Shown piece by piece: positions 12,611 through 42,042 of a DNA stretch of 64,000 nucleotides; within the stretch, counting starts at the first letter, position 1, and each line of letters opens with the position of its first letter. Source of the stretch: Lactococcus lactis (lineage in GTDB: Bacteria > Bacillota > Bacilli > Lactobacillales > Streptococcaceae). The stretch lies in assembly GCF_029023865.1 (NCBI RefSeq), contig NZ_CP118969.1, positions 806,001-870,000 on the forward strand. Direction: 5' to 3'. Under the pieces are notes generated by a model. The model saw only the letters and a list, made by a program, of their open reading frames with translations, was not told the origin of the DNA and made no database searches. A program made the translations under genes and the position numbers.

Positions 12611-13684
12611 ATGAGCAAAAGACTTTTAATTTTAGAAGACGGAACCATTTTTGAGGGAGAATCTCTTGGTGCAAACTTGGATGTTACAGGTGAACTTGTC
12701 TTTAATACAGGAATGACAGGCTATCAAGAATCAATCACTGACCAATCATACAACGGACAAATTTTGACTTTCACTTATCCAATTGTTGGAAATTATGGCG
12801 TCAACCGAGATGATTATGAATCAATTCATCCAACCTGTAAAGCCGTAGTTGTTCATGAAGCAGCGCGCCGTCCTTCGAACTGGCGGATGCAAATGTCTTT
12901 TGATGAATTTTTAAAATCAAAAAATATTCCTGGAATTACAGGTGTGGATACTCGAGCGATTACTAAAATTGTTCGAGAACACGGCACTATGAAGGCCTCA
13001 CTTGTACAAGCAAGAGATGAAGTAGAGCATCAAATGAGCCAACTTCAAGCGACAGTATTACCAACAAATCAAGTTGAAACAAGTAGTACGACGACCGCTT
13101 ATCCATCACCAAATACAGGTAGAAAAGTTGTCGTTGTTGACTTTGGTTTGAAACACAGTATCTTACGTGAACTTTCAAAACGGGAATGTAATCTCACCGT
13201 TGTCCCATACAACACCAGTGCTAAAGAAATTTTGGAAATGGAACCTGATGGTGTCATGTTGACTAATGGCCCTGGTGACCCAACAGATGTACCAGAAGCA
13301 ATTGAAATGATTAAAGAAATTCAAGGTAAAATTCCAATTTTCGGTATTTGCTTAGGTCATCAATTATTTAGTCTTGCAAATGGAGCAAAAACATACAAAA
13401 TGAAATTTGGACACCGTGGATTTAACCATGCCGTTCGTGAAATTGCAACAGGACGAATTGACTTCACCTCACAAAATCATGGATATGCCGTTTCATCAGA
13501 AAACTTACCTGAAGACCTAATGATTACCCATGTTGAAATCAATGACGACTCAGTTGAAGGAGTGCGTCACAAACACTTCCCAGCTTTTTCAGTCCAATTT
13601 CACCCAGACGCAGCTCCTGGACCTCACGATGCCAGCTATCTTTTTGATGATTTCATGGATCTCATGGATAACTTCCAAAAATAG
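12611..13684 (+). CDS. carA: Carbamoyl phosphate synthase small (glutaminase) subunit
   Basis: CarA hydrolyses glutamine and passes ammonia to CarB for carbamoyl phosphate synthesis. The 357-residue protein has the N-domain ([15 protein letters not shown]) and a class I glutamine amidotransferase domain with GICLGHQLF (nucleophile Cys, about 252). The catalytic His is in [12 protein letters not shown]: the residue two after His is Asp, where E. coli and most CarA have Glu. The start at 12611 has AAAGGAA upstream; an earlier in-frame ATG (12578) lacks support. carB is not in the window, so the large subunit must be encoded elsewhere. Confidence 0.93.
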
Positions 13685-30638: not shown

Positions 30639-31256
30639 TCACTGACAGCTAGAATAGTGATTTTTGTCAGTAATTTTAGGTCCAATTATTTCTTGAAAAA
30701 TAACTTTATTGACCGTTTTGGATTGGTCTGCAACTTTATAAAGTGCATTACGTTGAAGGGTTTGAACTTGAAAAGTGGGAGTGATATTCAAAGATTTATT
30801 CAGATTATCAGTAATAATTTGATTGGGGTTAAAAGAAATATCATCGGGAATCAAAGAAAGAATTGCCGATTTTTCATAATAGCGTTCAGAAATGTTTTGA
30901 TTTGCAACATGAAAACTTAAAGCTTTAGGGACTTTGGGGGTTTCAATAGGAAAACCAGCAATGACAGCATTAAAAGAAATATGTTGACCAAAATTAACTT
31001 GCTTACTTTTATATTTTTCAAGTTCAGCCCTAAGCAAAAGTTCAGCTTCCTCAAAATTTAAATTAGGTTGATAATAAAATTTCTTGCGAATATTATTGGT
31101 AATCAATTCAAATCCGGTAATTCCAACAACGAACCCATTTGGATTACTTTCAAATTTTTTAAAATGACTTTGGGTAAGAACTTTCTTGGTTGTAATTTGT
31201 CCATCTGAAATAATACTGATGAAATCAGGCAACATAACAATATTTATAAAACTCAT
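30639..31256 (-). CDS. Hypothetical protein, possibly an Ntn-hydrolase-like fold
   Basis: I do not recognise this 205-residue protein with certainty. The start (NIVMLPDFISIISDGQ) and VVGITGFELITNNI resemble the first strands of proteasome-like Ntn hydrolases, but the expected catalytic residue at position 1 or 2 is not evident. There is no signal peptide or membrane segment. The ATG has AAGGAT upstream. CTGACAG-type repeats lie on both sides (30615-30680 and 31276-31310). It is a single gene. Confidence 0.55.
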   Translation of the reverse strand: MSFINIVMLPDFISIISDGQITTKKVLTQSHFKKFESNPNGFVVGITGFELITNNIRKKFYYQPNLNFEEAELLLRAELEKYKSKQVNFGQHISFNAVIAGFPIETPKVPKALSFHVANQNISERYYEKSAILSLIPDDISFNPNQIITDNLNKSLNITPTFQVQTLQRNALYKVADQSKTVNKVIFQEIIGPKITDKNHYSSCQ

Positions 31257-31388: not shown

Positions 31389-31424
31389 AAAAAACAATTT
31401 ATGAAGTAATAAATTGTTTTTTTT
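31389..31424. terminator. Long bidirectional terminator
   Basis: Fourteen-base perfect arms (31389-31402, 31409-31422; core ACAATTTAT/ATAAATTGT) with A- and T-runs at the ends. Confidence 0.88.
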
Positions 31425-31478
31425 AGTAAATATAAAGTTTCATTAGAAAAATAGCAAGAAAAAACTTTCTATTAGCGG

Positions 31479-31516
31479 TGTTCTTTCCGAAAAACTTCAA
31501 TTTTTCGTAAAGAACA
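31479..31516. promoter_or_regulatory. Distal copy (A) of the WxL-operon palindrome
   Basis: The core CGAAAAACTTCAATTTTTCG (31488-31507) is a 7-6-7 inverted repeat, set in a larger inverted repeat with outer arms GTGTTCTTT (31479-31487) and AAAGAACAC (31508-31516). Confidence 0.7.
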
Positions 31517-31729
31517 CTAGTTAACTTATCAAATTTTCACTCTAGAATTACTTTGTAACTAAAAAAATTAGATACATACAATTATATTATATAATAATTA
31601 ATTATTTTGTACAAGATTAACTACACGATTATTAAAAAATATATCTGTAAAATTACACATTACTCAATTACCTAAACAAATCAAGACCTAAAATTGAGCA
31701 AAAACATTGCAATACAATGAAAAAATTTC

Positions 31730-31766
31730 CGAAAAATTGAAGTTTTTCTGAAAATTACATTAGAAT
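31730..31766 (+). promoter_or_regulatory. Proximal palindrome (B), CodY-like box and promoter of the WxL operon
   Basis: CGAAAAATTGAAGTTTTTCT (31730-31749) is copy A in reverse orientation with one mismatch. Its centre TTGAAG (31737-31742) is also the -35 box, followed after 18 bases by TAGAAT (31761-31766). GTTTTTCTGAAAATT (31742-31756) matches the CodY box at 13 of 15 positions. Two regulators could compete here. Confidence 0.7.
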
Positions 31767-31843: not shown

Positions 31844-32149
31844 TTGAAAAAATTAGTATTAATTATTTTATTGCTATTCTCATCGTCAAATTTATTGACG
31901 ACCATGGGTTCAGCAGATACAACAAGTTATGGTACAAAAGGTCAAGTTGGATTTACGGGAAATTGGGTAGGACTAGAATCGAGTTCAAGTAGTAAAGAAA
32001 ATCCTAAAAAAGACCTACCGATTACTCAGACCATACTCCCAAAAACAGGAGATATGGAATTCTCATCAATGGTAACTAGTTATGTTGGCTTATTAATTTT
32101 GGCAAGCATAATAGTTTATAAAAAAGAAAGAGGGAGGTTAACTTTATAG
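31844..32149 (+). CDS. Small LPXTG protein of the WxL surface complex (CscD-like)
   Basis: The 101-residue protein starts with TTG after AAAGGAAAG. It has a signal peptide (1-24), a mature amino end TTSYGTKGQVGFTG (about 27-40), a short linker, and a sortase signal LPKTGD (about 65-70) with a membrane segment and basic tail. Such small LPXTG proteins accompany WxL genes in lactic acid bacteria. Its mature start matches that of the WxL proteins downstream (for example QSYGTQGEVTF), which suggests it shares their binding partner. It is the first gene of the operon. Confidence 0.85.
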   Translation: MKKLVLIILLLFSSSNLLTTMGSADTTSYGTKGQVGFTGNWVGLESSSSSKENPKKDLPITQTILPKTGDMEFSSMVTSYVGLLILASIIVYKKERGRLTL

Positions 32150-32209
32150 AAAATAAATAATAGTCGATTACTGCACCTTTTTTAAGGATAAAACAAATGG
32201 AGAAACTTA

Positions 32210-33055
32210 ATGGATAAACTAATTTTAAAATCAACAACACTTCTTGCCGGCATATTGATTTCTGCCCCTATGATAATCACAACCGCTAGTGCGGCGACTA
32301 CAGGTGGGGATTACACTTCAAGTGCAAATTTGACTTTACAAGCAGGAACTGGTCCAGTCGACCCTCTTGATCCAACAGACCCAACTAATCCTGTAACACC
32401 AGTAGACCCAGGTACTCCAGGTGCTTCTGGAAATCTTACTGTCGATTATGGTTCAACCCTTTACTTCGGAACCCAATCAATTTCCACTCAATCTAAAACT
32501 TATTATGCACATCCTGATATGGTAAAAGATCAATCTAACGCTGTAAAAGTAGTGCCTAACTATGCTCAAGTAACAGACCAATCAGGTGAGCTATCAGGTT
32601 GGACATTAAGTTTAACACAAGCTTCAGATCTTCATATGACTACTGGAACATCAACAGATCCTGGATATGCACTTAGTGGTGCACAAATTAGCTTTACCGG
32701 AGGCACTCTCCTTGGAGGAAATGGTATTACCGCTGGGAAGCCAAGTGATGTTGTTGCTTCAGGAACGCTCACACCAGGAGTAGCAACAAAACTAGTTTCA
32801 GCTGCAAAAAATGAAGGAGCAGGAACTTGGTTATATAATTTTGGTGATGTAGATGCCTATGATGCAAGTTCAGTTGATACAGCCAATACCACAGATCATA
32901 CTAAAGTGGCGACAAAATCAGCAATTAGTTTGGCTGTTCCTGCAGGTTTGATTGAGAAAGCGGCACCATATACTACAGATTTGTATTGGAGCTTGCAAGC
33001 CGTTCCAGGAAATGATTGGGATGGAAATACATCTGCGGTTACACCAGCACCATAA
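32210..33055 (+). CDS. WxL-domain surface protein 1 (CscC-like)
   Basis: A 281-residue secreted protein with signal peptide (about 1-27, cleaved near ASAAT), a Pro-Asp-rich linker (PVDPLDPTDPTNP, about 50-62), and a WxL domain. The two WxL motifs are GWTLSL (about 129) and LYWSLQAVP (about 263). WxL domains bind peptidoglycan non-covalently and interact with DUF916/DUF3324 proteins. GGAGAAA precedes the ATG. Unlike its paralogues it ends with a short extension after the second motif (about 13 residues). Confidence 0.88.
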   Translation: MDKLILKSTTLLAGILISAPMIITTASAATTGGDYTSSANLTLQAGTGPVDPLDPTDPTNPVTPVDPGTPGASGNLTVDYGSTLYFGTQSISTQSKTYYAHPDMVKDQSNAVKVVPNYAQVTDQSGELSGWTLSLTQASDLHMTTGTSTDPGYALSGAQISFTGGTLLGGNGITAGKPSDVVASGTLTPGVATKLVSAAKNEGAGTWLYNFGDVDAYDASSVDTANTTDHTKVATKSAISLAVPAGLIEKAAPYTTDLYWSLQAVPGNDWDGNTSAVTPAP

Positions 33056-33083
33056 GTCTGATTTTGATAAAAGGAGAGAATAA

Positions 33084-33875
33084 ATGAATAAAATTTTATT
33101 AAAATCAACGGTACTACTAACTGCTGCATTAATCGTGGGACCAATAATTGCCAGTGAAGCTGATGCCGCAAGCACCGGTGGAGATTATACATCAAATGGT
33201 TATGTTAACTTTGCTGAAGGGGACAATACTGGAATTAACCCCGTTGATCCTTTAGACCCCTCTGTCCCTGTAGGACCAACAAATCCTGATGGTACCGACC
33301 CAACACCCGGAACAGGAGGAGCACTTTCAATCGATTTTGCTTCAAGTCTAAGTTTTGGAACACAAAAAATTTCTTCAAAGGATGCCACATACTTTGCTCA
33401 TGCACAGTGGATTAGCAAAGATAAAGATGGAAGTGCAGTTGATATGACACGTCCTAATTATGTTCAAGTTACTGATACACGCGGAACCTGGGATGGATGG
33501 ACCTTGACTGTTGCAGAATCCGATCAATTTCAAAATACTTCAGGAGAAAAGCTAACCGGAGCAGAACTATCTTTTAGTAAAGGTTATACCGATGGAACCA
33601 CTGCTGCAAAACCCGGTTATATCAATAACACTAATTTTGTTGTTAGTACAGCTGCTAGCAAAATTTTAGGAGCAGGTCCAAATCAAGGGATGGGAACTTG
33701 GGTATATGGTCTAGGAGCTAATGCAGATTACCAAGAAAATGGTGGAGCGCATCTGGGTAATGAAGCAGTTTCTACAGCATCACCAATCAGTCTTAAAGTT
33801 ATTGCTGGTACAAATAAAGCGACGTCATATACGACACAATTAATTTGGTCCTTAACGAATACCCCGGGAAATTAA
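33084..33875 (+). CDS. WxL-domain surface protein 2 (CscC-like)
   Basis: A 263-residue WxL protein with signal peptide (about 1-29), the start STGGDYTSNGYVNFAEGDN, linker PVDPLDPSVPVGP, and domain landmarks SIDFASSLSFGTQKIS, NYVQVTDTRGTWDGWTLTV (first W-x-L, about 137) and LIWSLTNTPGN at the end. It is a tandem paralogue of the preceding gene. AAAGGAGAG lies before the ATG and the gap is 28 bases, consistent with one transcript. Confidence 0.88.
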   Translation: MNKILLKSTVLLTAALIVGPIIASEADAASTGGDYTSNGYVNFAEGDNTGINPVDPLDPSVPVGPTNPDGTDPTPGTGGALSIDFASSLSFGTQKISSKDATYFAHAQWISKDKDGSAVDMTRPNYVQVTDTRGTWDGWTLTVAESDQFQNTSGEKLTGAELSFSKGYTDGTTAAKPGYINNTNFVVSTAASKILGAGPNQGMGTWVYGLGANADYQENGGAHLGNEAVSTASPISLKVIAGTNKATSYTTQLIWSLTNTPGN

Positions 33876-33912
33876 ATGTTTATAATTTCTAAACTATGAA
33901 AAGGAGGGTACT

Positions 33913-34671
33913 GTGAAAAAAATAAGATGGTTAAGTATACCTCTCATCTTAATGACATTAGGATTGGAATTTCGAGTTAATGCAGCAGAAGTCCAAAGCT
34001 ATAATTCGCAAGGAATAGTTGGTTTTGGTCCAGGTAGCGGAGTTCAACCCCCTGTTAATCCTAACAAACCTGATCCAACTTTACCTGTATTTCCACAAAA
34101 TCCAGATGGTTCAAAGCCTAATCCAGGGGGAAATGGCTCACTGACAATTGATTTTGCTTCAAGTTTTGACTTTGGGAATCATAAAATTTCTAATAAAGAT
34201 CAAACATATTTAGCTAAAGCCCAAAAGTATTTTGATTCTGAAGTTTTAACACCAAATTATGTTCAAGTAACCGATCGTCGAGGAACATTTGCCGGTTGGA
34301 ACTTAAAAGTAGTCGAAAAAACACAATTTACTCAAATTGACTCAGGCCCTCAGAAGTACAAAGTACTTAAAGGAGCAACGATTAATTTAAAAAGTTCAGA
34401 AACAGCTTCTTTTACTAATGAAAAATCTCCCAAAACACAAACAATTTCGGGACTTATTCCCGGTGTTGAAACTCAAGTAGCTCTTGCCTCAACTGGCGAA
34501 GGAGCTGGAACTTGGGTAATTCGCTGGGGAAACGATTCAATGGTCACTGAAGATGGCTTAACAACAGCAGTTTCATTATTTGTTCCTGGAGATACCCCCA
34601 AGGATGCGACTGCTTACACTACAACTTTAAATTGGATATTGTCTGATTTACCGACAAACGTGCCAAATTAA
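33913..34671 (+). CDS. WxL-domain surface protein 3 (CscC-like)
   Basis: A 252-residue WxL protein beginning with GTG after AAAGGAGGG. The signal peptide covers about 1-24; the mature start VQSYNSQGIVGFGPGSG is a variant of the shared strand motif; the linker is Asn-Pro-rich (NPNKPDPTLPVFPQNPDGS). The first motif is GWNLKV; the second reads LNWILSDLP (W-I-L). It lies 37 bases after the previous gene. The GTG start and lysine-rich middle set it somewhat apart from the other copies. Confidence 0.87.
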   Translation: MKKIRWLSIPLILMTLGLEFRVNAAEVQSYNSQGIVGFGPGSGVQPPVNPNKPDPTLPVFPQNPDGSKPNPGGNGSLTIDFASSFDFGNHKISNKDQTYLAKAQKYFDSEVLTPNYVQVTDRRGTFAGWNLKVVEKTQFTQIDSGPQKYKVLKGATINLKSSETASFTNEKSPKTQTISGLIPGVETQVALASTGEGAGTWVIRWGNDSMVTEDGLTTAVSLFVPGDTPKDATAYTTTLNWILSDLPTNVPN

Positions 34672-34708
34672 TTTGTAACACACATTATTATAGAAAAGAG
34701 GACATTAT

Positions 34709-35464
34709 ATGTCTAAATCAGTAACAAAATATCTCTCTCTAGCAACTTTAGGGATATTAGCAACATCAGTAACTCCACAACTTGCCAGTGCAGCTACAAC
34801 ACAATCATATGGCACGCAAGGAGAGGTGACTTTTACCGCCGGAACAGATACCACAGGTCCAGTTGACCCGCAAGACCCAACTGTTCCAGTAAAACCAACG
34901 GAACCAGATGGCGTTAATCCAGTAGGACCGACAATGCCTGATAGTGGTTTAACTATCGTCTATGCCTCAAGTTTTGATTTTGGAAGTCATCCTGTAAGCA
35001 ATAAAGCAGAAGTCTACAATGCTGCTGCACAAAAATTAGATGATAATACGACACGTACCAACTATGTTCAAGTTGCAGATAATCGTGGGACTTTCTCAGG
35101 TTGGAATTTAAAAGTTCAAATGACGGACTTCACAACAGCTGATAGTAATTTAGTAGCGAATGGTCATGGTACATTAACAGGAGCAACAGTGACTTTAGGT
35201 GATGCTGAGATTCAAGGAGCTGGTACAGCAAACCCAGCAGATATTTCTTCAGCTACTACAGTTTTGACACCTGGAGTACAATCGGCAACAATATTGGGAG
35301 CAACGGCTGGTCACGGCTCTGGTAATAGTTTACTTGACTTTGGGGGGAAAGATGGAGCTACAAAAGACACAGCCATCAAACTTTCTGTTCCAGCAGGTGT
35401 GGCAGGTGCAGCCAAGTATACAGCAGATTTAACCTGGACACTTGACGATACACCATCTAATTAA
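34709..35464 (+). CDS. WxL-domain surface protein 4 (CscC-like)
   Basis: A 251-residue WxL protein with signal peptide (about 1-29), mature start TTTQSYGTQGEVTFTAGTD, linker VDPQDPTVPVKPTEPDG, and the motifs GWNLKV and LTWTLDDTPSN at the carboxy end. Its mature amino end is the closest match to the small LPXTG protein at 31844. AAGAGGA lies before the ATG. Four paralogues in a row suggest duplication and division of labour on the cell surface. Confidence 0.88.
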   Translation: MSKSVTKYLSLATLGILATSVTPQLASAATTQSYGTQGEVTFTAGTDTTGPVDPQDPTVPVKPTEPDGVNPVGPTMPDSGLTIVYASSFDFGSHPVSNKAEVYNAAAQKLDDNTTRTNYVQVADNRGTFSGWNLKVQMTDFTTADSNLVANGHGTLTGATVTLGDAEIQGAGTANPADISSATTVLTPGVQSATILGATAGHGSGNSLLDFGGKDGATKDTAIKLSVPAGVAGAAKYTADLTWTLDDTPSN

Positions 35465-35500
35465 TATTTTTAGTGGTGAGAAACAAGCAAGGGAGATTTC

Positions 35501-38500
35501 ATGCAAAGAAAATATAAATTTAAACTTGTGACTTTTATAATGTTGCTAGAGTTGGTTTCATCTATGAATTTGGGGGCAATTTTTCAAGGTATTAATAGTG
35601 AACCTATTACGGCAACATCTCTTGGGAAGGTGTTATCATCTCAAGAAGTAGGAGCGACAACGTCTAATACTAGTATGAATACCATGCTTAAAAGCGTTGT
35701 TCCCACTAGTAGTACTTTTAATGGCGTATCTTTAACTCAGCCTAGTCGACCAGCTTTAAATATTAAACTTCCCACAGAGGCAACCAATGGAACAAGTTTT
35801 GGTTATCAGCAAAGTATTTCGGGTTTGCCTAATGTAGCAGCAGGTCAGATTTCTGTTATTCAAGGCGGAAGTACAATCTATAATGTTTCTGGTGTATCGG
35901 ATCCTAATGTTCAAGCTGCTTTAAGTTTTATTGCTTCGAACGCCTCAAATTCAAATGACTATGTCCTGTTTATTGGCGGTAATGTGACCTTGTCCAATTC
36001 TATGGCCAATACAGGCGCAGAAGGAACTTTTTCAGGCTTATCTGGAAAAGTTAAATCACTGACCATTGTTGCCAATACAACTGATAGTCTGACAAGTACA
36101 CCTAATGTTGCAGCGACAGGAAGTTATACGATTACAACTCCAACAAATAACTATTTTGGTGCCCCAACGGTCTTTCGTAACATTACTGTTGCAGCAACTT
36201 ATGACAATTTCTACGCTCAGGGTAATTCGATTGCATTTATGCCAGGATCGAACTTCACAGGATCTGGAATTTCAATTTATGGTGGAACAGCTGGAACGTC
36301 TAACGTTACAGGTGATACCAATATTTATGTTGCCTCAACTGGTACAGGAACGATGAGTTTTTATGGCGGAAATAATGCAGGCGGAAATATCTCAGGAAGT
36401 ACCCATGTTTCCATCACAAATGCTTCTGGATTAGGAACGGTTACCGGAGGCAATGCATCTGGCGGTATAATCAATGGCAATACAAATGTATCTGTAACTG
36501 GTTTTACTGGTAATGTGGGAAATATTTACGGTGCAGGTGTTGGAACAAGTGCTAGCCCTGTCACTGTAAACGGCAATGTTTATAACAACTGGAATTCAAG
36601 CATTGAAGGTGCCTCTTATAATACACGTTATTATGGAGGTACAGCTAACGGTACAGTCAAGGGCACAATTTACAACACATTTAAAGGTCTTGGAAGCTGG
36701 AATGGTCAAGAAGGTTACGATGGCGGTAGCGATACAGGTATCGTAGGTCAATCAGGCAACAGTGGGGATGCAATCGTCAATAGTGTAGATACAAGCCAGT
36801 TTACAGGCACAGGTCAATACGATTTCGCAGGGGCTGGCGGAGCACAAAACAGAAATTCGGGCACGGTTTATGGTAATATTACCAGTTATGTTAAAACTGG
36901 TTTCACTAATGCACCGATTTCTAGTTTCTCTGGTGGATTTGGTCAGGCTTATTATGGCTATACTATCAGTGGAATGCAAAGTAATGCTACGAATGACGCT
37001 AATCCCTCATCAGGTGCGGCGATTGCAGCAAGTAATTCTACCATAAAGATTTACGGCAATATCTATTCTTGGGCACAAGGCGGAACATTCTCTACCGGAA
37101 CCGGAAATAATTACATGCGCGGTGGCGGTTATGGTTATGTTCAAGGAAATAGTATTCTTGAAGTAGGAGATTCAAGCACCGCTCCTGGTGGTAATACAAC
37201 AGGTGAAAATGGAGTGTCCGATGGCAGCCGCTCGTCTTCAAATCGTACAGGGGTTGGCGGTTCTGGTTTTGTAAATGTTGGCTACGGGACAGCCAATGGT
37301 AATACTATTGCGACAAGTAATTTAGCTTATAAGTCAATGACTTCTGGTTATCAGGCTATCAATGCTTCTGACATTGTTGGCGGTGGTGGTACTGAAGGAA
37401 GTGATAACTCTTACTGGCAAGTAGGAGATTCTACTACCATTCAAAATAATGATATCGCTCGATGGACTTACGGCGATTGTTTTGGCGGATATCATCAGGG
37501 AAATTCTTATAATTTCAACAATGGTGGTATTCAGGATACGCTTGAAGGTGCAGGCTATACCGGTACTCTTTATGGTAACTCTAATACTCAAATGAACAAC
37601 GGTCAGGTTGACTGGTTTGAATCGGGTGGTTCCTGGAATAACCGAGTAATTCAAGGCAATATGACCAATGTCATTTATAATGGAGTTATCAACGCTATTG
37701 CTGGAGGAAATTACGGCTCAGGTGGTGGAAATGTTACTGGAGGGAATTCTGAAGTAGATGTATATGGTGGAGATTTTTCAGGAAATCCACGTACGGGAAC
37801 CAAACAATTATGCGGTGGTAATTTCTATAATGCCAGCAACACTATTCGAGGAAATTCAACACTCAATCTTGATTTATCTGGTCATACAGGAAATACTTTT
37901 AAATTTCCAACAGGTAATACATATCTCTCAGGGGGAAATGGCTATGGCAATACATTAACCAAAGTAGGTTCTGGATCAAGTAACGTGATTACCTTGAGTA
38001 TCAAAACAGGCGATGCGACAGCCAATACATTGGCTTCTGCAATACTTTACGGCGATGGTCAATCTAACGGTAACAGCAACACTTATACTAATGTTGGAAC
38101 GATTAATATTAATATCCAAAATATGAGTTCGACTACTCCAATGTCAGTAGGTTCAGTTTACGGTACAAATTATACTCAAGCGTTGCAATATAATACTAAT
38201 ATCAACATTTCAGATGGTGTCAATATTAAAGGAAGTGTCAATAGTGGTGGTACAAATGATAACTATCAAACATCAGTAACTACAGGAAAGGCATCAGTCG
38301 CTGCTGTTAATCTTGGGGATAATTCATCTCAGTTACCTATTAACATTTCTGGTACACTTGCTAACTTTACGAATGCAAAGATTTCTCCAAACGCTACAGT
38401 TAATGTCTCGGGTTCATTTTTAAACGGAAATGGCGCAACAGCGGTAAATCATGCAGCAAGTTACAATACAACTGGGAATTTGATACTAGGAACAAGTTCG

Positions 38501-40357
38501 ACGCTTGCAATCACTTCTTCAAGTTCTCTCATTTCAATTGCAAAGATGACAGTCGGCAGCAATATTACACTCTCGACCCCATATGTTCAAACTTCTGGAT
38601 TGATTAATCTTTCTGATTTGGATATGTCAACTAATAACGGGAGTTTATTTTGGTCGCCGATAGGAACTGCAACATCTCCAACTAATACTTTTGGCGGAGC
38701 TTATTGGGGAACACAAAGGGGATTCCCTGTGTTTACGTTTAATGGTGGAGATACTGCTACAAAATCTGGTGCAGTAAATATTAGTCCTAATAATTTTTCT
38801 GGTGTAGATTCAGCAAAAAATTATGCATTTTTAGGAGATTATACAATGTCTTCCCTCTCCACCCCAAGTAATCCAACTTGGATTGGTTATGTTGTTCCAG
38901 GGCAGGTACGTGTATATAATACAACTGGTGATGCAGATTCAGGAAATTGGCAACATCATTTAAAATCTAATGTTACAACAGGGAATCCCGTTGCTGGTCA
39001 AACGATGCAAGCATGGGCCTCGGTAGCATCTGATACTGATGCAAGTTCTATCAAAGTAATGTATGTGATGGGATATAGTGATAGCACAACAGCTCCCTTT
39101 AGCTTCACCGCTAAAGCACCATATTACATAAAATCTAGAACAGCCACGGCATTTGATGGAAAGGTTTTAAATAATTATCCATCAACTAATCCTAATTTTG
39201 ATGTCAATGCTGGAACTACTGGTGCTACACGTAACTTTGGTACGAGAGACTATTTTGTAGGAAATCAACAAGATGGCACAAACGATCAAGCAATATATGG
39301 AAGTTATATTGTACAAAATGTGGCTACTGATAACACCACTAGTCTAAGTGCTGGAAACTATATCCTACCGAATAAAGTTTCTGCAATAAATGCATCATCA
39401 TTGACTCAAGCACAACTCCAAAAAATTGTTGGTTTAAAAGGAGTGGGTGTAATGACAGATATTACGACGAGTGGTGATCCATTAAGTTCAATAAATAATG
39501 CAGGTAATACGATTCAAGATCCTACAACTAGTGATACTAATGTAAAAGATAAATCATATGCAGAAATACCTGTGAGCTGGACTTTGGGAAAAAGTTCTAC
39601 TAATAGTAATATTGTTGTTGTACCACAGGCAGCAGTTATTTCATCAGATAGCCAGACAGCTCTTAATGTTTATGATGCAAGTATGACAAGTGATGATGCA
39701 CACGATTTAAAAGATCAAAAAGATCTGGATGGTAATTGGACCTATGCTTTAGCTTTTAAAGCGGATGGAACGATAGAAGAACCAGTGATTAGCAGTCCGT
39801 CAAATTTGGTTACAACCTTGCAAACTATACAAGCCAATAATCCAATCATTGACGGAGATGGTAATATTCGTCCTGTTACTTATACTTATAATGGATTATC
39901 AAAAGATATTACACTTAATTTAACTTTTGGCTCTATAAGTCTTTCTACACCAAATTCTTACGACTTTGGTACATTAGACGTAAGTCCTAAACCATTAATT
40001 TCATGGGCCACAAGTCCTGCCAGTGATGTGGTTGTTACTGACACACGGACAGGTTCTGCCTTGAAGCCATGGTATGTGAGTGTCGCACAAACTCAAGATT
40101 TAAAAGGTTTGACAAATAATAATAATTTGGCTTCATATCTTTTCTTCAAAGATAGTACAGGAAGTAAAGTAATTACAAGTGATGCCTTACAGATTTATGC
40201 AAATACTTCACCAACTACTGGTACTTTTAAGTTAAATCAAAACTGGAATTCAACCTCTGGTGAAGGAATCCAATTGAATATTCCGGTTGATCATCAAGAG
40301 AAGGGAACCTATGAGGGACAATTAACTTGGTCTTTAAATAATGTACCTTCTAATTAG
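35501..40357 (+). CDS. Giant WxL surface protein with repeat-rich, probably beta-helical body
   Basis: The 1618-residue protein has a signal peptide (about 1-40), a region of short Gly/Asn/Ser/Thr-rich repeats (about 150-950, pattern GNxxVxVxGG or YGN), which suggests a right-handed beta-helix such as in adhesins or pectate-lyase-like proteins, then less repetitive domains, and a carboxy-terminal WxL domain (about 1470-1618). The first motif is WYV in place of WxL (about 1522) and the second is LTWSLNNVPSN at the end. It lacks the SYGTxG start of the small WxL proteins. It is likely the ligand-binding member of the complex, perhaps for glycans (inference). Confidence 0.82.
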   Translation: MQRKYKFKLVTFIMLLELVSSMNLGAIFQGINSEPITATSLGKVLSSQEVGATTSNTSMNTMLKSVVPTSSTFNGVSLTQPSRPALNIKLPTEATNGTSFGYQQSISGLPNVAAGQISVIQGGSTIYNVSGVSDPNVQAALSFIASNASNSNDYVLFIGGNVTLSNSMANTGAEGTFSGLSGKVKSLTIVANTTDSLTSTPNVAATGSYTITTPTNNYFGAPTVFRNITVAATYDNFYAQGNSIAFMPGSNFTGSGISIYGGTAGTSNVTGDTNIYVASTGTGTMSFYGGNNAGGNISGSTHVSITNASGLGTVTGGNASGGIINGNTNVSVTGFTGNVGNIYGAGVGTSASPVTVNGNVYNNWNSSIEGASYNTRYYGGTANGTVKGTIYNTFKGLGSWNGQEGYDGGSDTGIVGQSGNSGDAIVNSVDTSQFTGTGQYDFAGAGGAQNRNSGTVYGNITSYVKTGFTNAPISSFSGGFGQAYYGYTISGMQSNATNDANPSSGAAIAASNSTIKIYGNIYSWAQGGTFSTGTGNNYMRGGGYGYVQGNSILEVGDSSTAPGGNTTGENGVSDGSRSSSNRTGVGGSGFVNVGYGTANGNTIATSNLAYKSMTSGYQAINASDIVGGGGTEGSDNSYWQVGDSTTIQNNDIARWTYGDCFGGYHQGNSYNFNNGGIQDTLEGAGYTGTLYGNSNTQMNNGQVDWFESGGSWNNRVIQGNMTNVIYNGVINAIAGGNYGSGGGNVTGGNSEVDVYGGDFSGNPRTGTKQLCGGNFYNASNTIRGNSTLNLDLSGHTGNTFKFPTGNTYLSGGNGYGNTLTKVGSGSSNVITLSIKTGDATANTLASAILYGDGQSNGNSNTYTNVGTININIQNMSSTTPMSVGSVYGTNYTQALQYNTNINISDGVNIKGSVNSGGTNDNYQTSVTTGKASVAAVNLGDNSSQLPINISGTLANFTNAKISPNATVNVSGSFLNGNGATAVNHAASYNTTGNLILGTSSTLAITSSSSLISIAKMTVGSNITLSTPYVQTSGLINLSDLDMSTNNGSLFWSPIGTATSPTNTFGGAYWGTQRGFPVFTFNGGDTATKSGAVNISPNNFSGVDSAKNYAFLGDYTMSSLSTPSNPTWIGYVVPGQVRVYNTTGDADSGNWQHHLKSNVTTGNPVAGQTMQAWASVASDTDASSIKVMYVMGYSDSTTAPFSFTAKAPYYIKSRTATAFDGKVLNNYPSTNPNFDVNAGTTGATRNFGTRDYFVGNQQDGTNDQAIYGSYIVQNVATDNTTSLSAGNYILPNKVSAINASSLTQAQLQKIVGLKGVGVMTDITTSGDPLSSINNAGNTIQDPTTSDTNVKDKSYAEIPVSWTLGKSSTNSNIVVVPQAAVISSDSQTALNVYDASMTSDDAHDLKDQKDLDGNWTYALAFKADGTIEEPVISSPSNLVTTLQTIQANNPIIDGDGNIRPVTYTYNGLSKDITLNLTFGSISLSTPNSYDFGTLDVSPKPLISWATSPASDVVVTDTRTGSALKPWYVSVAQTQDLKGLTNNNNLASYLFFKDSTGSKVITSDALQIYANTSPTTGTFKLNQNWNSTSGEGIQLNIPVDHQEKGTYEGQLTWSLNNVPSN

Positions 40358-40372
40358 TTGCGTATAGCAATT

Positions 40373-40406
40373 TTATACAAAGTGGGATTAGTCCTACTTT
40401 GTATAA
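40373..40406 (+). repeat. Strong hairpin without T-run between the giant WxL gene and the DUF916 gene
   Basis: Fifteen-base arms 40373-40387 and 40392-40406 (outer TTATACAAAGT/ACTTTGTATAA) with one wobble and a 4-base loop. No uridine run follows, so it looks like an RNA stabiliser or processing site that could set the ratio of the two products. Confidence 0.75.
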
Positions 40407-40479
40407 CGGACTTATTTTAATTTTATTATAAGATTTTAATCAAAATACTACAGAGATGTAGTTCTAGAAAGAGAACATA

Positions 40480-41652
40480 ATGAAAATTTATCAAAAAGTT
40501 TTACTGTTCATTGCCACTATCTTTACTTTAGGGACTGTCAGTAAAGAAGTTCATGCAAATGAATTTAATTTTTCTGTGAACCCGGTTCTTCCAGAAAACC
40601 AAATTGGCGAGAGCGGATACTTTAATTTACAAATGAGTCCAGGACAATCGCAAACTTTGACGATTACTCTAAAAAATACTACTGACAAAACAGTAGTGGT
40701 TGAAGAAGAAATAGCTAGTGCGACAACAAATATTAACGGTGTGGTTGAATACTCACCAAATAAAATTAAAGCAGATTCAACACTAAAGTATAATCTAGTA
40801 GACTATGCCTCAATTCCAAAAGAAGTATCACTACAACCAAACTCTTCACAGCAAGTAAAAGTGAGTGTTACTATGCCAAAGGAAAATTTTAATGGTGTAA
40901 TTGCTGGTGGAATTACTTTTAAAGAGAAGGACTCAGAGAAAACAAATTCCAATTCTAAGGGATTAAGTATTCAAAATAAATATGCTTACGTTGTTGCTTT
41001 ACTGATGCAACAAAATAAAAATACTGTTGCGCCTGACTTGAAATTAAATAGTGTAGAGCCTAGTCAGGTTAATTATAGAAATGTAATTAATGCCAATTTA
41101 CAAAATCCAATGGCTGGATATCTAAATCAAATGTATGTTCAAGCAGAGGTCAAAGGTTTAAGTAATTCTAAATTATCTTATAAGGCAAACAAAGAGATGC
41201 TGCAAATGGCACCAAATAGTAATTTTGATTATCCTGTTTCTATTGGTGATGGAAATAAGCTTGAAGCGGGTAAGTATCGTCTATCGATGACAGTATATGG
41301 GCAAAAAAATAATGACGGAAAGTTCACTTATGTTGATTCAAAAGGAAAAGAACAAAAATTTGATTATCAATGGAAATTTACAAAAGACTTTACAATATTA
41401 GGTAAAACAGCAAGTAAATTAAATTCAAAAGATGTAACTGTTAAGAAGACTCCTTGGTATGAAAATTGGCTTATCTGGTTAGGTTTATTATTAATTCTTT
41501 TAGCTCTTTTCTTCTTGTTCTTTATTTTATGGAAGAGACGTAAAAAAGAAGAAGAGGAGCAAGATTTAGAAAAAGAAAAATTAAAAGCTCAACTTGAAGA
41601 AATGAGAGAGCAAATAAGTAAAGAAGATAATTCTGATGAGACAGACGTTTAG
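40480..41652 (+). CDS. WxL-interacting protein, DUF916 + DUF3324 (CscA-like)
   Basis: The 390-residue membrane protein is the WxL-interacting partner. It has a signal peptide (about 1-26), DUF916 (about 29-150; NFSVNPVLPENQ start), DUF3324 (about 160-300), a membrane helix (about 326-348) and a highly charged cytoplasmic tail rich in Lys and Glu. DUF916/DUF3324 proteins bind WxL proteins and peptidoglycan, fixing the complex to the cell. It is the last structural gene of the operon and is preceded by a strong hairpin. Confidence 0.88.
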   Translation: MKIYQKVLLFIATIFTLGTVSKEVHANEFNFSVNPVLPENQIGESGYFNLQMSPGQSQTLTITLKNTTDKTVVVEEEIASATTNINGVVEYSPNKIKADSTLKYNLVDYASIPKEVSLQPNSSQQVKVSVTMPKENFNGVIAGGITFKEKDSEKTNSNSKGLSIQNKYAYVVALLMQQNKNTVAPDLKLNSVEPSQVNYRNVINANLQNPMAGYLNQMYVQAEVKGLSNSKLSYKANKEMLQMAPNSNFDYPVSIGDGNKLEAGKYRLSMTVYGQKNNDGKFTYVDSKGKEQKFDYQWKFTKDFTILGKTASKLNSKDVTVKKTPWYENWLIWLGLLLILLALFFLFFILWKRRKKEEEEQDLEKEKLKAQLEEMREQISKEDNSDETDV

Positions 41653-41730
41653 GTTCTACTTAGATTTTTGAATCATGATTTACATTTATTAAAGTTAAGT
41701 AAAAGTAAAACAAATTGCAGGAGGTTTTTT

Positions 41731-42042
41731 ATGGCCGAGAATCAGCTATTCTACCCACGGTTAGAAGAATTAATAAGAATATCAAAAAAGTCTTTTAATC
41801 AAGTTGAAAGAGATCTAGGATATCCTAGAAATGCGCTTCATAATTATAAAAACGGTGTGGAACCTTCGGGAATTCGATTGATTGAATTGGCACATTATTT
41901 CGGAGTAACACCTGAGTATTTGCTAGGAATAAACAATGACCCAAAAAATAATGGAACTAGAATTATTTTTGAAAGTCTTAATGATTATCAAAAAAAAGAT
42001 TTATGCATTATTTGTCAAGAATGGTTGTTGTCTTCAAAATAG
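41731..42042 (+). CDS. XRE-family helix-turn-helix regulator
   Basis: The 103-residue protein has an amino-terminal XRE/cI helix-turn-helix (KSFNQVERDLGYPRNALHNYKNGVEPS, about 21-47; then IRLIELAHYFGVTPEYLLG) and a short helical carboxy part. I placed the start at 41731, which has AGGAGG upstream. It follows the DUF916 gene by 78 bases on the same strand without an obvious terminator, so it may be transcribed with the WxL operon and is a candidate for binding the palindromes at 31488 and 31730 (inference only). Confidence 0.8.
   Translation: MAENQLFYPRLEELIRISKKSFNQVERDLGYPRNALHNYKNGVEPSGIRLIELAHYFGVTPEYLLGINNDPKNNGTRIIFESLNDYQKKDLCIICQEWLLSSK

Follow-up and report, generated by a model that had tools for sequence, protein, structure and literature searches.

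Upstream of an operon for WxL-domain surface proteins in Lactococcus lactis lie two inverted copies of a palindrome, which raises the question of what acts on them. A first-pass annotation of this DNA had read them as operators at which a bound protein loops the DNA. From our comparison of sequences across the genus, we conclude that the two copies, A and B, are very probably Xer-type crossover sites around an invertible promoter, OFF in this assembly, that controls the WxL operon.

The site pair and its surroundings

The window, i.e. the whole stretch of 64 kb that was analysed, contains copies A (31488–31507) and B (31730–31749, minus strand), which are identical at 19 of 20 positions and have their centres 242 bp apart, both as first described. 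With up to three mismatches the 20-mer has just these two matches in 64 kb, against 0.02 expected from shuffles. The search of the genome that had been suggested found it to be very rare (four matches in 2.59 Mb with up to three mismatches, two of them weak at three mismatches), and one weak match (1198802) proved to be one of the two sites of a second pair. The inverted repeat formed by A and B extends to 28 nt (31484–31511 and 31726–31753; 26/28, 93% complementary), which is far beyond chance. It flanks a short segment in the gap between a leftward gene (30639–31256) and the LPXTG-WxL-WxLIP-XRE operon (31844–42042), and the crossover centres of the pair are identical at 6/6 positions. The features of the region are the following.

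30639–31256, minus strand: divergent gene on the far side of the segment (open reading frame; no Pfam or NCBIfam match)
31389–31422: AT-rich, terminator-like hairpin of 14 bp with U's at its end (−10.2 kcal/mol, z −6.1)
31478–31517: extended palindrome at site A, GTGTTC of the outer flank being joined to GAACAC of the inner flank (−18.5 kcal/mol, z −6.1)
31484–31511: putative recombination site A, with arm 31484–31494, 6-bp centre CTTCAA at 31495–31500 and arm 31501–31511; 28-nt inverted repeat with B, in the 11-6-11 layout common to 15 non-redundant pairs
31512–31725: putative invertible segment of 214 bp between the inverted sites; genomes G004 and G016 have another segment of this class in opposite orientations
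31586–31614, minus strand: TTGTAC-17-TATAAT, the best-scoring promoter of the segment, directed away from the WxL operon (OFF)
31726–31753: putative recombination site B, the inverted copy, with centre TTGAAG at 31737–31742; same repeat and layout
31844–32149, plus strand: first gene of the operon, small LPXTG surface protein of the EF2685/EF0750 family (NF053819, 50.6 bits)
32210–33055, 33084–33875, 33913–34671 and 34709–35464, plus strand: four WxL-domain surface proteins (PF13731, 175–212 bits)
35501–40357, plus strand: large surface protein of 1618 aa, assigned to the same operon by position (open reading frame)
40480–41652, plus strand: WxL-interacting protein, WxLIP (PF11797, PF06030)
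41668–42042, plus strand: XRE-type HTH protein, last gene of the operon (PF12844/PF01381)

The XRE protein is a homologue of the regulator heading lactococcal eps clusters (plasmid eps homologues). The additional outer arms noticed at copy A are present as 17-nt arms (31478–31494 and 31501–31517, 94%); the resulting 40-bp palindrome (31478–31517) is only formed in the present orientation, and no purpose was found for it. No Rfam match above the gathering score was obtained for a known RNA element.

Site pairs across Lactococcus

Similar 28-mers, mostly paired, were found in 14 of 18 genomes of the genus, against few for a reversed control pattern. Fifteen non-redundant pairs, from eight Lactococcus-genus genomes and one plasmid, are spaced 173–288 bp apart (one 466 bp), and their sites consist of two near-constant 11-bp arms (TTTCCGAAAAA) around a 6-bp centre. 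This 11-6-11 arrangement is the layout of Xer-type sites (dif). Within pairs, the centres are identical at 89 of 90 positions in the inverted register versus 31 of 90 in the direct register, the maximum in 100,000 partner shuffles being 64/90. The 15 pairs have 15 different centres, none of them palindromic. Equality within a pair combined with drift between loci points to a recombinase that exchanges strands, since mere binding gives no reason for it, and the inverted orientation of the sites means that recombination would give inversion. Judged from sequence, such covarying, locus-specific inverted centres are the hallmark of inverted crossover sites for a tyrosine recombinase.

These centres also bear on the looping regulator, for which the XRE protein of the operon itself has been a possible candidate. 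Several pairs (L020, L025, L058 and L144) have an XRE homologue as neighbour and the DNA between the sites is AT-rich, but the centre hexamer covaries inside pairs and differs between them, the spacing is without helical phasing, and two sister species have a segment of this class in opposite orientations (see below). We therefore regard the looping-operator reading as very improbable and its mode of action as unsupported; what stands of the claim that the sites control the WxL operon is that they are real, functionally linked, inverted and suitably placed. The protein encoded at 41731, which had been named as a possible reader of the motif, is unlikely to have that role, as many pairs lack a nearby XRE gene (those before secA2, LPXTG genes and the WxL genes of L113) and most XRE homologues lack a site. 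The XRE protein was rejected as the binder because its homologues and the sites are only loosely associated.

The size of the segment and its terminal repeats would fit a MITE, a small transposable element, of about 270 bp. Nevertheless, the inner sequences are unrelated between loci, orthologues excepted, which contradicts a single MITE family; the centres agree inside pairs and not between pairs, and the segment at one locus has been inverted in place with its flanks intact, so that this explanation is hardly credible.

Many of the pairs stand before clusters of surface genes. Pairs precede WxL operons in G004, G015 and G016, and the motif is indeed present before orthologous WxL operons of other species (L113, L114), where the first-pass annotation had proposed to look for it. 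Pairs are also located before a SpaH/EbpB-type pilin cluster and before an LPXTG adhesin (both G011), before another LPXTG protein (G016), before secA2 (G004, G016), before XRE-type regulator genes (G007, G016), before an XRE-plus-eps cluster (G006), before a sugar-metabolism-like gene (G009) and, on the L. lactis plasmid, before a MucBP protein. The targets (WxL, pilin, LPXTG, SecA2, eps and MucBP) belong to the class that is phase-varying elsewhere. The second pair in the window's own genome (G000:C1:1198798–1199027, L020 6799–7028), with sites starting at 1198798 and 1199000, lies just upstream of an XRE gene that is followed by a secreted protein. None of the loci examined from outside the genus contained a pair whose inverted centres match; a pattern scan of wider genome contigs gave, among the matches listed, mostly chance ones outside the family, and a scan of viral contigs matched one contig.

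Promoters inside the segments

Promoters in the 15 segments were evaluated with our own sigma-A-type score against dinucleotide shuffles. Near-consensus promoters are enriched in the set as a whole (Fisher p 2e-9 over 15 segments) and reach p 0.007–0.05 individually in ten of the 15; examples are TTGACA-17-TATAAT and, twice, TTGATA-17-TATAAT. The best promoter points away from the target gene in 12 of 15 segments. The internal promoter of the window, TTGTAC-17-TATAAT, is alone not above shuffles (p = 0.22). When the segment is flipped in silico, this promoter moves to 31623–31651 on the plus strand, 193 bp before the first gene of the operon. In the present orientation, the hairpin at 31389–31422 would be expected to end the leftward OFF transcript short of the divergent gene at 31256.

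The promoter TTGAAG-18-TAGAAT (31737–31766), which had been annotated across site B, exists as a sequence, but it is a 9/12 match and one of eight such in the window, against 5.4 ± 2.3 in shuffles. Its −35 box, presented as a feature at the centre of B, coincides with the variable centre of the site, which is different at every other locus and hence not conserved.

Site B also contains GTTTTTCTGAAAATT (31742–31756), which agrees at 13 of 15 positions (two mismatches) with the lactococcal CodY box. CodY motifs have been reported at a WxL operon (PMC13413889). That the sites are CodY boxes is nevertheless improbable: with up to three mismatches allowed, the window has about as many CodY-like matches as chance gives (29 versus 23.4 ± 5.1), for which reason the CodY box was rejected, the conserved unit is the 28-bp pair and not a 15-mer, and CodY leaves both the paired centres and the inversion unexplained. 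Binding of CodY to site B could occur in addition.

Inversion between sister species

Genomes G016 and G004, which represent sister species, share a site pair upstream of a 170-aa XRE-like gene. The flanks there are identical at 227/251 and 236/253 positions on the same strand, whereas the inner segment is identical at 179/209 positions when inverted versus 131/215 in the same orientation. The breakpoints of the inversion coincide with the two sites. In G016 the promoter TTGACA...TATACT is directed away from the XRE-like gene (OFF), in G004 toward it (ON). Two other loci shared by these genomes, orthologous WxL segments among them, have the same orientation in both species, from which it follows that the method does not itself produce inversions. 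The inversion was observed at one locus, between two species and not within one culture, with one genome per species. The window segment was seen in one orientation, in one assembly of its species, and we infer both its flipping and the effect of this on WxL expression. This single orientation and the shared orientation of the WxL segments in G004 and G016 weigh against the switch.

The cross-species comparison of L020 and L061, in which the arm and seven flanking bases appear swapped between the ends, hints at a further inversion, although it is suggestive only. Contig breaks near sites in G015 were considered as inversions as well and are not interpretable that way. For testing inversion, no informative plasmid match was found for the L060, L124 and window regions.

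A degenerate pair is located before epsR in the pNZ4000-type eps cluster (L143:3791–3969 and 35 related plasmids). The segment has one orientation, with the promoter ON, in 36 of 36 lactococcal eps plasmids, and the centres of the pair no longer match (TTTTAA versus CCTTAA in pNZ4000). These plasmids look as a locked switch should, though a plain promoter would look alike.

The recombinase

The arm TTTCCGAAAAA is the left arm of the difSL site adjoining xerS in 12 genomes of the genus. The window sites contain this difSL left arm, TTTCCGAAAA(A), identical to the arm beside xerS in those 12 genomes; they are without the asymmetric right arm TTTTCTTGAAA and the 31-bp site, and they lie about 395 kb from xerS. 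With two left-type arms, they are by their sequence difSL-like rather than difSL. XerS at difSL is normally controlled by FtsK. Among the recombinases clustered, a set that covers the integrases in part, XerS is the sole cluster common to all pair-bearing genomes, and G016 combines five pairs with a single xerS. Five genomes in which XerS is divergent and has no recognisable difSL next to it (G003, G006, G013, G014 and G017) have no intact pairs, although the numbers are small. In G007, difSL was not found beside xerS; this, the symmetry of the sites and the control by FtsK count against XerS. Since the left arm of difSL consists of the same 11 bp, XerS is the most likely recombinase, and we consider this assignment probable. 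The left half-site is also the one that XerS binds more strongly in the described difSL (PMC5357621).

The same invertible promoter might instead be served by a dedicated recombinase such as an unrelated integrase, a XerS paralogue or a XerD-like protein. Known invertases are often dedicated, the window's genome (G000) has about 15 integrase-family genes above the cut-off, including a XerS paralogue adjoining xerS, and a 251-aa XerD-like frame is also widespread. We consider a dedicated enzyme rather unlikely, yet worth weighing, as no other recombinase cluster is common to all pair-bearing genomes among those clustered and the arms equal the difSL arm. The paralogue beside xerS was rejected as the invertase because it is absent from G004 and G016, the genomes with the most pairs.

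According to the mechanism that we propose, a Xer-type tyrosine recombinase would act on A and B, inverted around the 214-bp promoter segment, and strand exchange across the identical 6-bp centres would flip the segment. In the present orientation the internal promoter would read leftward, away from the WxL operon and into the terminator-like hairpin (OFF); after a flip it would read rightward, so that the LPXTG-WxL-WxLIP-XRE operon would be transcribed (ON). The result would be phase variation of the cell surface. It is conceivable, if somewhat less probable than not, that XerS also runs invertible promoters throughout the genus (WxL, pilus, adhesin, SecA2 and polysaccharide), with private 6-bp centres restricting recombination to a site's own partner and thereby sparing the chromosome.

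Relation to known systems

The nearest known system is dimer resolution by XerS/difSL in lactococci and streptococci (PMC5357621), with which the pairs have in common the 11-bp arm TTTCCGAAAAA, an asymmetric centre, the tyrosine-recombinase layout and the presence of xerS in pair-bearing genomes. In contrast to difSL, the sites described here have two left-type arms and hence symmetry, form inverted pairs and are located at promoters instead of the terminus, and their centres vary by locus. Invertible promoters are well known (PMC5903667, PMC2784873, PMC11868660). The cwpV and flagellar switches of C. difficile (RecV) and fimS of E. coli (PMC5903667, PMC2784873) likewise place a promoter or leader before genes of the cell surface, on a short segment bounded by inverted repeats, with the recombinase encoded elsewhere (RecV), whereas here one site family with the arms of a dimer-resolution site serves many loci, each with a private centre. 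Xer-like enzymes flip surface genes in mycoplasmas: for Xer1 of Mycoplasma agalactiae (PMC2268961) and the mba locus of Ureaplasma (PMC3599477), a Xer-like tyrosine recombinase has been shown or proposed to flip surface-gene DNA, but those systems shuffle gene copies at one locus and do not involve single promoters scattered over the genome. The XerC/D (pdif) modules of Acinetobacter plasmids (PMC9947245) are also pairs of Xer sites that recombine plasmid DNA; they flank gene modules, whereas the segment here is a promoter only.

A network paper of 2026 (PMC13413889) proposed, on the basis of co-expression, that a lactococcal WxL operon is under XRE and CodY/PerR-like control, and leaves the palindromes unmentioned. 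Our literature search, of partial coverage, found nothing on lactococcal promoter inversion, XerS phase variation or invertible promoters of WxL operons. The invertible promoter is thus a known kind of element, and a genus-wide set on XerS-type sites was not found in the literature searched; some of these loci may already be included in the supplementary tables of genome-wide inversion surveys, which were outside this search.

If our interpretation is correct, lactococci, starter species included, would switch surface proteins and accessory secretion, and perhaps exopolysaccharide, by DNA inversion. Such switching could be a reason why strains are unstable in adhesion, phage sensitivity or texture, and why bulk assays may show WxL operons as silent. 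A private centre per locus would be a simple way to run many invertible promoters with one recombinase and, should XerS be the enzyme, one machine would serve both the resolution of chromosome dimers and phase variation.

Other dif-like sites

Several related sites were encountered outside the pairs. In the window's genome (G000:C1:1232846–1246690; L275, L121), xerS/difSL has as its neighbour a further recombinase of the XerS family (351 aa, about 48% identical), followed by arsenic-resistance genes. A dif-like site, TTTCCGAAAAAGTTTGCTTTTTCTCAAA, is located 12.7 kb from it and is also present in G008, G010 (twice) and G149. On a 63-kb contig of G006, a recombinase that is 94% identical has a site similar to TTTCCGAAAAAGTTTGCTTTTTCTCAAA beside it. 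The region resembles an integrative element that uses difSL by means of a XerS of its own. About 120 Lactococcus plasmids have in common a stretch of 148 bp that contains a dif-like site (L144:2600–2747) and is perhaps a plasmid Xer resolution site.

A site variant with swapped arm bases (TTTCGGAAAAA...TTTTTCCGAAA) occurs singly on a 58-kb contig of the window's genome (G000:C2:32149–32176 and 13537–13564) and on a 15-kb contig of G015 (G015:C60:1269). Streptococcus-family genomes (e.g. G184, G189 and G198) contain single dif-like sites with the recurring centres TAAGTA/TACTTA, often near 90–140 kb of the first contig, which are possibly integration sites of mobile elements.
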